This document shows, one piece after another, positions 37,000-41,140 of a stretch of 64,000 nucleotides of DNA. Position 1 is the stretch's first letter. The number at the start of each line of letters is the position of its first letter. The notes beneath the pieces are model-generated. The model was not told where the DNA came from. It did no database searches and saw only the letters and a list, made by a program, of their open reading frames with translations. The DNA lies in contig JAJEAU010000001.1 in NCBI GenBank assembly GCA_022824185.1, forward strand, positions 1-64,000, read 5' to 3'. The position numbers were made by a program, and so were the translations under genes. Source of the DNA: Dehalococcoidia bacterium. GTDB taxonomy: Bacteria; Chloroflexota; Dehalococcoidia; Lucifugimonadales; Lucifugimonadaceae.

Positions 37000-38502
37000 A
37001 TGGCTGACACTCAATCCATCCAACCACCCGCGGCCGCAACCCCAGCATGGGACCCAGCAGCACCCGAAAACGCCTGGTACAAGTGGCGAGCATTCTGGGC
37101 GGTAGGGCTCTCGCTCGTCACCATGGTGATGAGCTTCAGCATCGTCTTCCTCGCCCTTCCCGCAATCGCTGAAGACTTCGGCATCACGTTCAAAGAAGCA
37201 TCCCTCCTCGTCATCGCCCAATCCCTTACTGTCTCCGCATTCATGGTCCCTTTGGGCAAGGTGGCCGACATGATCGGACGCAAAAAGTTCCACCTAATCG
37301 GCCTCATCCTTTTCGGCGGCGGAGCCATCGCATGCGCGTTCGCCACCAACCTCACATTCTTGATCGTCACCCGCGTCATCATGTCCCTCGGTAGCTCCAT
37401 GGGACAAGCAGTCTCGACCGCCATAACCACCTCCGTGTTCCCCGGAAACGAACGCGGAAAGGCCCTCGGATCCCAGACTACCGCCGTCGCCATCGGCGGC
37501 GCGTCCGGCACGATCGTCTCCGGCGTCACCCTCCAGTTCCTTCCTTGGCAGGCTTTGTTCATATTCATGGCCATCCCCACTGCCGTCGCATTCTTCTGGG
37601 GCTTGTACATCCTCAAAGACGAGCGCATCGGATCATTCTCGGGCGAAGAAAGACCGCCCTACGACTGGCTAGGCGCAATCCTCTCCGCCGTCGCAACCGC
37701 CATCGTCATCCTCACCATCACCAACCCGTTCGCGCTCGATTGGGGATCGCCGATCATCATCTCGGGAGCTTTCGCCGGCATCGCGACCATCGCCGTATTC
37801 ATCTGGTGGCAACTCAAGACCAAGCACCCGATGGTAAACCTCCGACTCTTCAAAATAAGCGTCTTCAAGTTCGCCATCCTCACCCGATACTTCGCCTTCA
37901 TGCGCTCCTCCGCGACCATGTTCCTCATGCCAATCTTCCTAGTCGCATTCCGAGGTTGGCCCGAGATCTACGCCTCTGGCGTCATGCTCCTCATGGCAAT
38001 CGGAATGGGGGTCGGCGCCCAAGTCTTCGGCAGACTCTCCGATCGCTACGGCACTCGGCCCTTCATGGTCGGCGGCTTCGTCGTCCTGATCTTTACCGGC
38101 GTCGCACTGGCAACCCTCAGCGCTACGTCGCCTCTGTACTACATCGCCATCGTTACGTTGGTCAACGGCCTCGCACAAGGAGCATGGTCCGCCCCCAACG
38201 CGGCCGCAACCATGGGTTCAGTACCCCGATCCTTCTACGGTCTAGTAAGCGCAATCATCAACCTCACCCGCAACCTCGGAAACGTCAGCGGACAGGCCAT
38301 AGTAACCGCAATCATCGCCGGCGTCATGATCGCACGCGGCTTCGACATCCCCCTCTCCGAACTTGACGACACACCCGGAGCCGGTAAGGCATTCCTCGAC
38401 GGCTGGAGTTACGCATACTTCGTCGCCACCGGGATAGTAGCCTTAGCTCTCGTAACATCATTCCTGACCAAACCAAGCAGACACGAAACCACACCCACAT
38501 AG
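37000..38502 (+). CDS. MFS exporter, DHA2 type
   Basis: A 500-residue transporter with about 14 hydrophobic segments. Motif A reads GKVADMIGRKKFHLIG, and a motif-C-like GGASGTIVSGVTLQ follows segment 5. A second motif-A-like GRLSDRYGTRPFM lies in the C-terminal half. It is the second DHA2 exporter in the window and is not closely similar to the one at 7614. It lies 20 bases before an SDR gene, so the two may be transcribed together. Confidence 0.88.
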   Translation: MADTQSIQPPAAATPAWDPAAPENAWYKWRAFWAVGLSLVTMVMSFSIVFLALPAIAEDFGITFKEASLLVIAQSLTVSAFMVPLGKVADMIGRKKFHLIGLILFGGGAIACAFATNLTFLIVTRVIMSLGSSMGQAVSTAITTSVFPGNERGKALGSQTTAVAIGGASGTIVSGVTLQFLPWQALFIFMAIPTAVAFFWGLYILKDERIGSFSGEERPPYDWLGAILSAVATAIVILTITNPFALDWGSPIIISGAFAGIATIAVFIWWQLKTKHPMVNLRLFKISVFKFAILTRYFAFMRSSATMFLMPIFLVAFRGWPEIYASGVMLLMAIGMGVGAQVFGRLSDRYGTRPFMVGGFVVLIFTGVALATLSATSPLYYIAIVTLVNGLAQGAWSAPNAAATMGSVPRSFYGLVSAIINLTRNLGNVSGQAIVTAIIAGVMIARGFDIPLSELDDTPGAGKAFLDGWSYAYFVATGIVALALVTSFLTKPSRHETTPT

Positions 38503-38522
38503 CAGCACCGGAGGAACTCCCC

Positions 38523-39284
38523 TTGAGCAAAACAGGCACCGAATCCCTCGAAGGCAAAATCGCACTCGTAACCGGCGGTGGAACCGGCATCGGCAAAGGC
38601 ATCGCCCGAATCTTCGCCAACAACGGCGCAGACGTAACCATCGCTGCACGAAACCAAGAACGCCTACAAGCCACCGCCGACGAACTCTCAGCCGAATCGG
38701 GCAACACCGTCACCCCCGTATCCATGGACGTAACCGACGAAGACAGCGTCACCTCAGTCTTCGAATCAATCATGGACACCCACGGACGACTCGACATCCT
38801 CGTCAACAACTCCGGCTCCATCGAAGGCGACCCCATCGAAACCCTCTCCTCTGAGAAATGGCTCCGAGTGATGAACACCAACGTCACCGGCATGTTCTAC
38901 TGCACTAAACAGGCCTTCAAGATCATGCGACCCCAAGGTGGCGGACGCATCATCAACATCGGCTCCATCGCCGCACAACGATCCCGCCACTCCGCCGCGG
39001 CTTACACCACCTCCAAACACGCCGTATGGGGCCTAACCCAATCCGCCGCCATCGAAGGACGAGACATCAACATCGCCGTCTCCGCACTGCACCCCGGCAA
39101 CACCATGGTCGAACGCCGCGCAGACGCCCGATCCGGTTCAGGACGAGACGAAGGCCCCGAACCCATGATGGACGTCGAAAACATCGCCCGAACCGCCCTC
39201 CTGATGGCAACCCTCCCACCGGACGTCAACATGCTAGAAGCCATTGTGATCCCGAACGAACAGCTCTACCTCGGGCGTGGGTAG
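38523..39284 (+). CDS. short-chain dehydrogenase/reductase
   Basis: A 253-residue SDR with the NAD(P) site VTGGGTGIGKGIA, the NNSG structural motif and a catalytic Ser in NIGSIAAQRS. The Tyr/Lys pair is in YTTSKHAVWG. Classical SDRs of this type reduce or oxidise hydroxyl/keto groups; the substrate is not evident. The start is TTG 38523, supported by GGAGG about 10 bases upstream. Repeat elements begin right after its stop. Confidence 0.9.
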   Translation: MSKTGTESLEGKIALVTGGGTGIGKGIARIFANNGADVTIAARNQERLQATADELSAESGNTVTPVSMDVTDEDSVTSVFESIMDTHGRLDILVNNSGSIEGDPIETLSSEKWLRVMNTNVTGMFYCTKQAFKIMRPQGGGRIINIGSIAAQRSRHSAAAYTTSKHAVWGLTQSAAIEGRDINIAVSALHPGNTMVERRADARSGSGRDEGPEPMMDVENIARTALLMATLPPDVNMLEAIVIPNEQLYLGRG

Positions 39285-39290
39285 GAAAGG

Positions 39291-39530
39291 TCCCCCTCCT
39301 TCACGAAAGGGCTAGGACGAGGTCACAGCTGCTTCCCGTTCTTTCGCTCATATCCCCCGCCTTCAGGAATAATTCCCCCCCTCCTTCAGGAGGGGGCTAG
39401 GGGGAGGCCGCAGCCGTTTCCTGCCCCGAAACTCATATCCCCCGCCTTCAGGAGGGAATCAGGGGGAGGCCACGCCAATTCCTGCTCGACCAAATCCCCC
39501 CTCCTTCAGGAGGGGGCTAGGGGGAGGTCA
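39291..39530. repeat. cluster of GC-rich palindromic repeats, left side
   Basis: At least four copies of a unit with the core CTTCAGGAGGG and a following AGGGGGAGG occur at about 39291-39325, 39381-39408, 39438-39470 and 39501-39530. A fifth, truncated copy lies near 39352-39368. They point in the same direction and vary by a few bases. They resemble the REP/BIME class of dispersed palindromes and fill the gap before the DUF559 gene. Confidence 0.75.
39501..39530 (+). repeat. 30-bp inverted repeat, left arm beside DUF559 gene
   Basis: This copy is the closest of the left cluster to the DUF559 gene. Its reverse complement occurs at 40004-40033 with a single mismatch, so the pair forms an inverted repeat around the gene. 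Each arm also contains its own short palindrome (CTCCTTCAGGAG). Confidence 0.75.
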
Positions 39531-39630
39531 CCGTAGGCCATGTTGACGATGTTCCTCACCTAAATCGGCCCGCACAAAAGTTCGCCATTTCAGGACGAAG
39601 GATCCCAACCGTTGCCTGTAACATGCGTCC

Positions 39631-39981
39631 ATGTACTTCAAATCTAGCCGACAATATCGCCGCGCCAAGAATATGCGCGCGGATCCGACGGATGCAGAGA
39701 AACTGCTTTGGGAGAAACTCCGGGCAAAGCGATTGAACGGTCACAAGTTTCGTCGCCAAATGCCAATCGACAGTTTCATCGTTGACTTCGCATGCTTCAA
39801 ATCCAAACTCGTCATCGAGCTTGATGGTGGTCAGCACGACGAACAATCTTCGTACGACGAATTCAGAACCGCAGTGATCAATCAAGAAGGATACCGAGTC
39901 ATTAGATTTTGGAACGATGTGGTTTTCGAAAACACCGACGGAGTGCTTTCGACGATTCTCTCAAACTTGGATGGGCAATAA
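39631..39981 (+). CDS. DUF559 (Vsr-like endonuclease fold) protein
   Basis: A 116-residue protein of the DUF559 family, which has the PD-(D/E)XK/very-short-patch-repair nuclease fold. It shows ARNLR-like basic N-terminus YRRAKNMRADPTDAEKLLWE, then RRQMPIDSFIVDFACFKSKLV and ELDGGQHD, where the acidic residues and Gln of the active site lie. RFWNDVVFEN follows. The family is often found next to dispersed repeats, but a role has not been shown. Its last 27 codons lie in a segment that is duplicated in tandem downstream, and the gene sits inside an inverted repeat. Confidence 0.88.
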   Translation: MYFKSSRQYRRAKNMRADPTDAEKLLWEKLRAKRLNGHKFRRQMPIDSFIVDFACFKSKLVIELDGGQHDEQSSYDEFRTAVINQEGYRVIRFWNDVVFENTDGVLSTILSNLDGQ

Positions 39982-40188
39982 GGTTTGTGTTGAGCAAGCC
40001 CATTGACCTCCCCCTAACCCCCTCCTGAAGGAGGGGGAAAACAGCTAGATTTTGGAACGATGAGGTTTTCGAAAACACCGACGGAGTGCTTTCGACGATT
40101 CTCTCAAACTTGGATGGGCAATGAGGTTTGTGTTGAGCAAGCCCATTGACCTCCCCCTAACCCCCTCCTGAAGGAGGGGGAAAACAGC
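39903..40188. repeat. 143-bp tandem duplication of the DUF559 3' end
   Basis: Units 39903-40045 and 40046-40188 are identical except for two substitutions, at 39920/40063 and 39980/40123. The second turns the TAA stop into TGA, so the copied tail still has a stop in frame. The unit contains the last 26 codons of the DUF559 gene and one palindromic repeat arm, and the second copy has no start of its own. It is a recent duplication. Confidence 0.93.
40004..40033 (-). repeat. 30-bp inverted repeat, right arm beside DUF559 gene
   Basis: The reverse complement of 39501-39530 with one mismatch. A second copy occurs at 40147-40176 through the tandem duplication, and a degenerate one follows at about 40188-40217. 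Confidence 0.75.
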
Positions 40189-40282
40189 TCCCCCTAACCC
40201 CCGCCGGAAGGAGGGCGACGTAGCATCTCGCGATATACTCACTTACGGCAATCAAAGCCCACCCATCAACTAGGAGAATCCC

Positions 40283-41002
40283 ATGTACATCCTCATGGTC
40301 CGTCTAAAGGTCAAAGACGACCGCATCGACGACTTTATCGAAGCCTCCATCGGCGACGGCGTCGGCTCCGTCCTCGGCGAACCGAACTGCTACCGCTTCG
40401 ACATCATCCAAGACGACGAAGACCCCACAAAATTCGCCTTCTGCGAAGTCTACGAAGACGAGGCCGCATTCCAGTACCACACCATGGCGTACCACTTCCA
40501 TCAGTGGCGCGACGCATCAGCCGACATGTTCGCAGAAGACCCCGAAGTCTCCTTCTGCCGCTCTGTATATCCCGCCGGCCCCGCCGAATGGGATGCATAC
40601 CGACCCGGTGCTGTCGACGACCCCGCTTTCCAAAACGGAACCCTTCACGTCATCCACGCCCCCCAATACGTCCAAGCCGACAAGGTAGACGACTTCATCG
40701 CCGCCGTCACCCTCGACGGCATCGGCTCGACCCACGAAGAGCCCGGCTGCCTACGCTTCGACGTCTACCAAAACGTCGACGACCCAACCGAACTCTACCT
40801 CTACGAGGTCTATGCGAACAGAGACGCTTTCGACTATCACGTCGGCACCCCGCACATCAAACAATGGCGCGACACCGTAGCCGACTGGTACGACGAAGAA
40901 CGACGAGACGCCTCAATGGCTGGCAACATGGGTGCCCGCCGAGGCCGAAACGTCTGGCCGCCGGACAACTGGAACTGGTCCTCCGGCAAACCTGCTTTCT
41001 AG
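40283..41002 (+). CDS. two-domain ABM (antibiotic biosynthesis monooxygenase-like) protein
   Basis: A 239-residue protein with two ABM ferredoxin-like domains (about residues 1-75 and 112-195). Each has the pattern of a DDFIEA-type helix, a G-EPxCYRFDI strand and YxDEAAFQYHTMAYHFHQW. Single-domain relatives act as dimers in quinone, heme or signal-molecule oxidation, so a fused dimer is plausible. The conserved His of each half (HFHQWRD, HIKQWRD) is visible. Good ribosome site AGGAG. A hairpin follows the gene. Confidence 0.8.
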   Translation: MYILMVRLKVKDDRIDDFIEASIGDGVGSVLGEPNCYRFDIIQDDEDPTKFAFCEVYEDEAAFQYHTMAYHFHQWRDASADMFAEDPEVSFCRSVYPAGPAEWDAYRPGAVDDPAFQNGTLHVIHAPQYVQADKVDDFIAAVTLDGIGSTHEEPGCLRFDVYQNVDDPTELYLYEVYANRDAFDYHVGTPHIKQWRDTVADWYDEERRDASMAGNMGARRGRNVWPPDNWNWSSGKPAF

Positions 41003-41025
41003 CCTGCCGATCGAAACTGGCACGT

Positions 41026-41056
41026 CGTAAGGGCGACCCTTGTGGTCGCCCTTACG
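41026..41056 (+). terminator. terminator-like perfect hairpin
   Basis: A 13-bp perfect stem (41026-41038 with 41044-41056) has a 5-nt loop and is followed by TTTG. It lies 24 bases past the ABM gene. The palindrome also resembles dispersed repeat elements known from other genomes, so both roles are possible. Confidence 0.65.
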
Positions 41057-41140
41057 TTTGCATTGATTAGTTCTCCCTACATATTGCTTCCATCCATTAC
41101 GCTGTATCAATCAAACCGCCTCAATCTGATCGCCAGCCTG

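Follow-up and report, generated by a model that had tools for sequence, protein, structure and literature searches.

Introduction

Intrastrand triplex motifs, described as BoxC, PIT or TM, consist of a purine-arm hairpin, a second loop of 3 nt and a third block, rich in G and suited to reverse-Hoogsteen pairing, and they occur in many copies per genome and in close inverted pairs (PMC4666352). For the E. coli motif, BoxC, whose second loop is TTA or CCG, triplex formation has been demonstrated in vitro; the sites are unstable, and the survey of the copies found neither a mobility gene nearby nor a functional class among the neighbours (PMC4666352). Such motifs are found in hundreds of genomes without a known means of spread. 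In RAYT-REP, REPIN and REPtron systems (PMC2817692, PMC3116915, PMC3733652), a small DNA-processing gene lies between palindromes, each enzyme lineage has its cognate repeat, inverted doublets are formed and orphan copies persist where the gene is absent. The enzyme, RAYT, is an HUH tyrosine transposase of the IS200/IS605 family and the REP palindrome carries a GTAG tag. Rickettsia RPE and CGTC REPs are in-frame palindromes in protein-coding genes with no dedicated transposase known (PMC3733652).

DUF559 proteins (PF04480) are widespread. A preceding sequence-only reading of the DNA studied here held them to be without assigned function; no function has indeed been established, but nuclease-fold predictions go back at least to 2005, one of which makes YcjD a Vsr-related PD-(D/E)XK nuclease (PMC1189080). 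A cyanobacterial study puts a DUF559 gene in the EDxHD homing family (PMC9403480), and one mutant phenotype is known from Caulobacter, where loss of a solitary methyltransferase leads VsrA, a protein with a DUF559 domain, to trigger an SOS response (PMC12907096). Here we show that DUF559 genes are linked to triplex motifs across phyla, which offers each a candidate partner and suggests that DUF559 proteins, including YcjD, may supply the enzyme so far lacking for the spread of triplex-forming repeats. We found no earlier report of this link in the open-access literature, most subscription journals and preprints lying outside the search.

The window DUF559 gene lies between inverted triplex motifs

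The window is a stretch of 64,000 nt within contig C7 of a 2.54-Mb Dehalococcoidia (Chloroflexota) metagenome-assembled genome (G000). The features of the locus are as follows.

39291-39322, plus strand: left-hand palindrome of the triplex motif, degenerate, 81% to the reference copy
39377-39407, plus strand: triplex motif with arm AGGAGGGGG, linker CTA and mirror tail GGGGGAGG, tail toward the gene
39438-39469, plus strand: degenerate triplex-motif copy, 81% to the reference copy
39497-39530, plus strand: left inner arm, triplex motif, 97% inverted repeat of 40004-40037 (39497-39528 in the strict finder)
39631-39981, plus strand: DUF559 (PF04480) single-domain nuclease of predicted Vsr/EDxHD fold, 116 aa, Pfam E = 3.6e-42
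39903-40045, plus strand: tandem duplication unit 1, gene 3' end and motif, 143 bp
40004-40037, minus strand: right inner arm, triplex motif, tail toward the gene
40046-40188, plus strand: tandem duplication unit 2, truncated gene end and motif, 99% identical to unit 1
40147-40180, minus strand: second right triplex-motif copy
40188-40218, minus strand: degenerate outer right copy, 90% to the reference copy of family D3

The 116-residue DUF559 ORF stands between two inverted copies of a 34-nt palindrome that are 97% complementary, so the near-perfect arms described from sequence are confirmed at slightly greater length. The extra copies also lie as described, with those on the left (39377, 39497) on the plus strand and those on the right (40006, 40149) on the minus strand, and degenerate copies stand at 39291-39322, 39438-39469 and 40188-40218. 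A palindrome search of the window allowing up to 3 mismatches gave 11 matches, all within 39292-40217 (chance expectation 0), and the strict motif finder retains four copies. The exact window variant has one further copy in its own genome outside this locus; a related GGGAGAGGG variant has 32 exact copies there and dozens in genomes of the same genus. The 143-bp tandem duplication repeats the 3' end of the DUF559 gene together with one palindrome. The neighbouring genes encode a short-chain dehydrogenase and an ABM-domain protein.

Each palindrome carries on one side a 3-nt linker followed by a G-rich mirror of the purine arm of the stem, AGGAGGGGG-CTA-GGGGGAGG. A purine-motif reverse-Hoogsteen third strand is encoded by mirror symmetry in which G faces G and A faces either A or T, and the window copies have both the hairpin stem and a third strand mirroring its purine arm in this way. 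Judged by their sequence, the window arms are members of a known repeat class, the intrastrand triplex motifs BoxC and PIT (PMC4666352), and as a repeat they are already described. Arms vary by locus (GGGAGAGGG, GGGGGAAGG, GGGAGGGAG, GGGGAGGGG, GGGAAGGGG), each with its own mirrored tail. When hairpins at DUF559 flanks were picked without the mirror rule and arm/tail pairs were compared over 8 nt, 18 pairs were perfect mirrors, while shuffled tails gave a mean of 1.9 and a maximum of 8. The sequences favour a triplex over a G-quadruplex as the reason for the tail because asymmetric arms are mirror-matched, for example GGGGGAAGG by GGATGGGGG. A plain DNA fold of the window copies gives the hairpin alone, from a program that models no triplexes. 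Unlike REP, with its GTAG tag, the repeat here has a mirror tail, and GTAG is absent from the palindrome foot of every window copy. An Rfam search of 38400-41100 returned no intron match, leaving the ORF free-standing; the only matches were two below threshold (37 bits) to whalefall-1, at 40148-40182 on the minus strand (23.6 bits) and 39375-39409 on the plus strand (20 bits). The whalefall-1 RNA family may be a triplex motif too.

The window protein is a predicted Vsr/EDxHD-fold nuclease

The window protein matches the DUF559 profile with 143.1 bits against a curated cut-off of 20.6 (E = 3.6e-42). Residues E23, D52, E63, D65, D76 and R79 are invariant in the DUF559 alignment and H69 is near-invariant; the nuclease residues E23, D52, E63, D65 and H69 are all present in the window protein and are invariant or nearly so across 52-54 aligned sequences. 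Its AlphaFold2 model (pLDDT 91.9) gives Z 16.0 with 3hrl (Neisseria DUF559), Z 12.3 with the I-Bth0305I homing endonuclease domain (PDB 3r3p; rmsd 2.4, 92 aligned), Z 10.0 with Vsr and, more weakly, Z 6.6 with TnsA. The single Vsr-like fold gene that had been placed between the arms is thereby recovered. We regard the protein as a predicted hydrolytic nuclease of Vsr/EDxHD fold. By itself, a nuclease of this hydrolytic kind cannot transfer strands.

The protein shares with the EDxHD homing endonuclease I-Bth0305I the catalytic fold and detectable sequence homology (E = 1.2e-5). Unlike that enzyme, it is a single domain with no DNA-binding extension, and its gene lies outside an intron and between repeats. 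Vsr mismatch endonuclease and Caulobacter VsrA (PMC12907096) are alike in fold, but no methyltransferase gene neighbours DUF559 in the window, and a repeat association is not described for Vsr. Identification of the window protein as a RAYT was rejected, since it has no HUH/tyrosine domain and matches only DUF559 and related nuclease profiles; the enzyme here has the PD-(D/E)XK/Vsr fold in place of the HUH tyrosine transposase. A role as a defence system was likewise rejected, the PADLOC matches being weak partial ones to large proteins.

DUF559 genes and triplex motifs are linked across phyla

DUF559 genes flanked by motifs of this triplex class occur in Chloroflexota, Pseudomonadota, Bacteroidota, Cyanobacteriota, Deinococcota and Omnitrophota. 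Within 400 nt of the gene, a strict motif was found at 56 of 84 DUF559 loci and 13 of 331 control positions, and motifs stand on both sides at 36 of the 84 loci and at none of the 331 controls; with a control subset of 200 positions, p is about 1e-28 for one motif and 1e-22 for both sides. Nearest motif pairs are inverted in 33 of 39 cases and the tail points toward the DUF559 gene in 75 of 101 (minus-strand loci were reoriented for the counts of strict motifs, inversion and tails). An independent test for repeats shared between the upstream and downstream flanks (E<1e-4) found them at 37 of 55 DUF559 loci, 35 with a hairpin, and at 7 of 578 control centres, 3 with a hairpin. Controls were drawn from Dehalococcoidia genomes and from the flanks of the cross-phylum loci. 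The proposed check of co-occurrence between repeat and DUF559 has thus returned a linkage in both tests, and the motif, unlike in the published account (PMC4666352), brackets DUF559 genes and comes after ycjD. Since loci were collected by similarity to the window DUF559 subfamily, these fractions cannot be extended to PF04480 as a whole, which also includes parts of large proteins.

Strict motifs occur in, among other hosts, Rhodopseudomonas, Afipia, Enterobacter, Rhodocyclales, Bacteroidales, Prevotella and Omnitrophota; Neisseria, Synechocystis, Deinococcus and Azospirillum loci were added from plasmid-collection records. About one third of DUF559 loci are without a strict motif, some having long-loop or hairpin-linker versions and others unrelated palindromes. 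A large Chloroflexota DUF559 clade is of this kind and shows, by eye, a long-loop form in one member (L172, GGGGAGGG-CTA-GGGAGGGG) and hairpin linkers in another (L192). Relaxed motif finders, with a longer loop or linker and no third-strand mismatch, did not raise the total. At the Neisseria locus (L254, 1990-2584), the DUF559 gene is followed by GGGAGAGAG-CTA-GAGAGAGGG motif copies 281 bp apart.

Empty, paired and gene-bearing sites

Three states were seen at one position of a methyltransferase gene on cyanobacterial plasmids: an empty site in Planktothrix (L275), an inverted motif pair through which the reading frame stays open in Pseudanabaena galeata (L274), and motif-DUF559-motif, which splits the methyltransferase gene, in Synechocystis sp. 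B12 (L255). At the window locus, DUF559 is in the opposite orientation in one relative (G005), while two others (G002, G006) have another gene in its place, which answers in the affirmative whether the locus exists both with and without the gene. As comparisons of sequence, these occupied and empty sites, together with the internal gene sites of the window genus described below, are the nearest approach to evidence of mobility; they showed no target duplication. Clean empty sites with a target duplication were sought in Dehalococcoidia by joining flanks and none was found, alternative palindromes and deletions blurring the boundaries; at phnD-phnE and yhjE-yhjG of E. coli the motif is present or absent with boundaries likewise blurred and no target duplication. 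Overall we found no cleavage site, target duplication or clean insertion boundary; the Dehalococcoidia and E. coli sites are hypervariable. Of the traits of insertion sequences and MITEs, inverted repeats are present; no duplication was seen at the hypervariable sites.

Motif classes track the protein tree of DUF559

In a poorly resolved tree of 85 DUF559 proteins (45 of the 81 inner branches are open), the 53 labelled loci require 10 changes of motif class, whereas shuffled labels require 26 on average. With near duplicates removed the values are 10 and 20, and with Chloroflexota triplex classes alone they are 7 and 13.3; in each set, all 1000 shuffles gave more changes than observed. Some motif classes are confined to one genus and shared descent therefore contributes to class matching, from which the tree test does not fully separate it, while the match between class and protein clade extends across some host families. 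Paralogues of one genome that differ in class are more telling: L045 and L196 of G034 have GGGAGGGAG and GGGAGAGGG, L210 and L211 of G470 have GGGAAGGGG and GGGAGAGGG plus GGGGAGAAGG, and L072 and L043 of G005 have AGGAGGGGG and GGGAGAGGG. Dispersed copies of a class are abundant in the genomes of the genus in which that class brackets DUF559.

Across 400 Chloroflexota genomes the pattern GGGAGAGGGNNNGGGWGAGGG occurs 3343 times and its reversed control 207 times. Of 131 genomes with the pattern, 79 have DUF559 (E<=1e-12), as do 50 of the 269 that lack it (odds ratio 6.7, p=2e-16, uncorrected for phylogeny); 22 of 65 genomes with at least 10 motifs are without a clear DUF559 gene, and DUF559 matches per genome range from 0 to 11.

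The second full DUF559 gene of the window genome (C10:343276) has direct copies of an unrelated palindrome, CGTCCCCTTTCG...CGAAAGGGGACG, on both sides. At this locus (L010, C10:341776-344053) the palindromic CGTCCCCTTTCG... repeat of about 90 bp lies at 1305-1392 and 1851-1925, and about a dozen more copies are dispersed in the genome. Assignment of this family to CGTC REPs was dropped: its CGTC is inside the stem, whereas a true CGTC tag is unpaired.

A proposed element without a transposase

The RAYT-REP-like arrangement suggested by the sequence-only reading holds in that inverted palindromes bracket the gene, solo copies and inverted doublets occur elsewhere in relatives, and each clade has its class; orphan copies stand elsewhere as in RAYT/REP. 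The association, the inversion, the mirror grammar, the match of class to protein tree and the three states of one site are shown; movement driven by the nuclease is the part that we infer. With moderate confidence, we propose that triplex motif, DUF559 gene and inverted triplex motif form a small selfish element with a RAYT/REPIN-like way of working. The Vsr/EDxHD-type nuclease would recognise the motif of its own lineage, probably as a hairpin or triplex in single-stranded or extruded DNA, and would nick or cut at or beside it; host repair would then copy the motif, or motif-gene-motif, to motif-bearing or new sites. Inverted pairs without a gene would be the non-autonomous form and solo motifs such as E. 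coli BoxC relics of such elements. Counting against the proposal are the comparisons of sites, which gave no clean boundary, target duplication or cleavage site, the 22 of 65 motif-rich Chloroflexota genomes with no clear DUF559 gene, the third of loci that lack a strict motif, and the inability of a hydrolytic nuclease to transfer strands by itself. If this is true, the RAYT/REPIN way of life would have been reached a second time with an unrelated enzyme. We advance only tentatively, at a little under even chances, the broader idea that DUF559 is a dedicated mobiliser of BoxC/triplex motifs across bacteria that acts by hydrolytic nicking of a triplex-capable hairpin and host repair, YcjD being the live or fossil BoxC enzyme; this would make a class of REP-type mobile element without any transposase.

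The serious rival is pure homing, in which motifs spread by other means and serve as homing sites, not cargo, the DUF559 nuclease cutting motif-bearing sites so that nothing but its own gene is copied between motifs already in place. Among characterised enzymes the nearest is a homing endonuclease domain, that of I-Bth0305I; an inverted pair without gene stands at one site in a relative of the gene-bearing form; and many genomes have motifs yet no gene. We nevertheless think this reading unlikely, as motif class tracks protein clade, even across some host families, dispersed copies of a class abound in the genus where that class brackets the gene, and the spread of the motifs would be left unexplained.

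ycjD and BoxC in E. coli

In E. coli K-12 MG1655, ycjD is annotated as DUF559. A BoxC copy, CCCCTCTGGGGAGAGGGTTAGGGTGAGGGG, lies about 165 nt past its stop codon and a damaged copy at the gene end, where strains 118UI and MFDS1022581 have an intact motif. The ycjD 3' end is partly duplicated along with the motif, as in the window. Such 3' duplications of the DUF559 gene were found at 7 of 88 loci (the window, G005, L193 and the E. coli/Enterobacter lineage) and 5' duplications at none of the 88; the control test for nearby duplication gave 6 of 370. The recurrent duplications of 3' end and motif are at 39903-40188 of the window and in L043, L193, L162-L164 and L102.

About 2000 E. coli genomes have no match over ycjD, and the three inspected have an efflux operon there. 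At this sapF-fabI locus (L162, L260-L262), ycjD with BoxC alternates with the RND efflux operon eefRABCD (see also PMC12817139). At phnD-phnE (L264, L267-L269) and yhjE-yhjG (L265, L270-L273), strains differ in having motif pairs, products of deletion between the paired motifs, or other palindromic sequence.

Two further readings draw on these data. DUF559 could be a housekeeping, Vsr-like repair nuclease for the hairpins or triplexes of the motifs, with gene proximity a mere by-product; the SOS response linked to Caulobacter VsrA (PMC12907096) and the instability of triplex-motif sites in E. coli (PMC4666352) agree with this. A repair enzyme acting in trans needs no place between inverted motifs of its own class, however, and would give no reason for 0 to 11 matches per genome, which makes this reading improbable. 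Equally improbable is that triplex-motif sites are passive hot spots of breakage or recombination that gather foreign genes, DUF559 being one kind of cargo: the exchange of ycjD and eefRABCD (PMC12817139), of BoxC and other palindromes at the same intergenic sites, and of DUF559 and another gene in G002 and G006 would fit, but no random position in the same genomes is bracketed (0 of 331) and passive cargo would not be expected to match motif class by clade. For the proposed motif-DUF559 element, the link places both DUF559 and BoxC within reach of testing in E. coli K-12.

Palindromes at internal sites of conserved genes

In the window genus, species differ in the palindrome family carried at one internal position of an acVLRF1-like release factor gene. 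This is a permissive site, at which palindromes are in frame (L002 1376-2146; orthologues L157-L161). The in-frame location is shared with Rickettsia RPE and CGTC REPs (PMC3733652); unlike the motifs studied here, CGTC REPs bear an unpaired CGTC tag at one end, and sequence and architecture differ. A second conserved gene of the genus (L228, L236, L243-L245, L250) also has different palindrome families at one internal position. Genomes of this genus (G000-G006) contain further abundant short repeats in many copies, of a CGTCATTCC type and of a BoxC-adjacent type.
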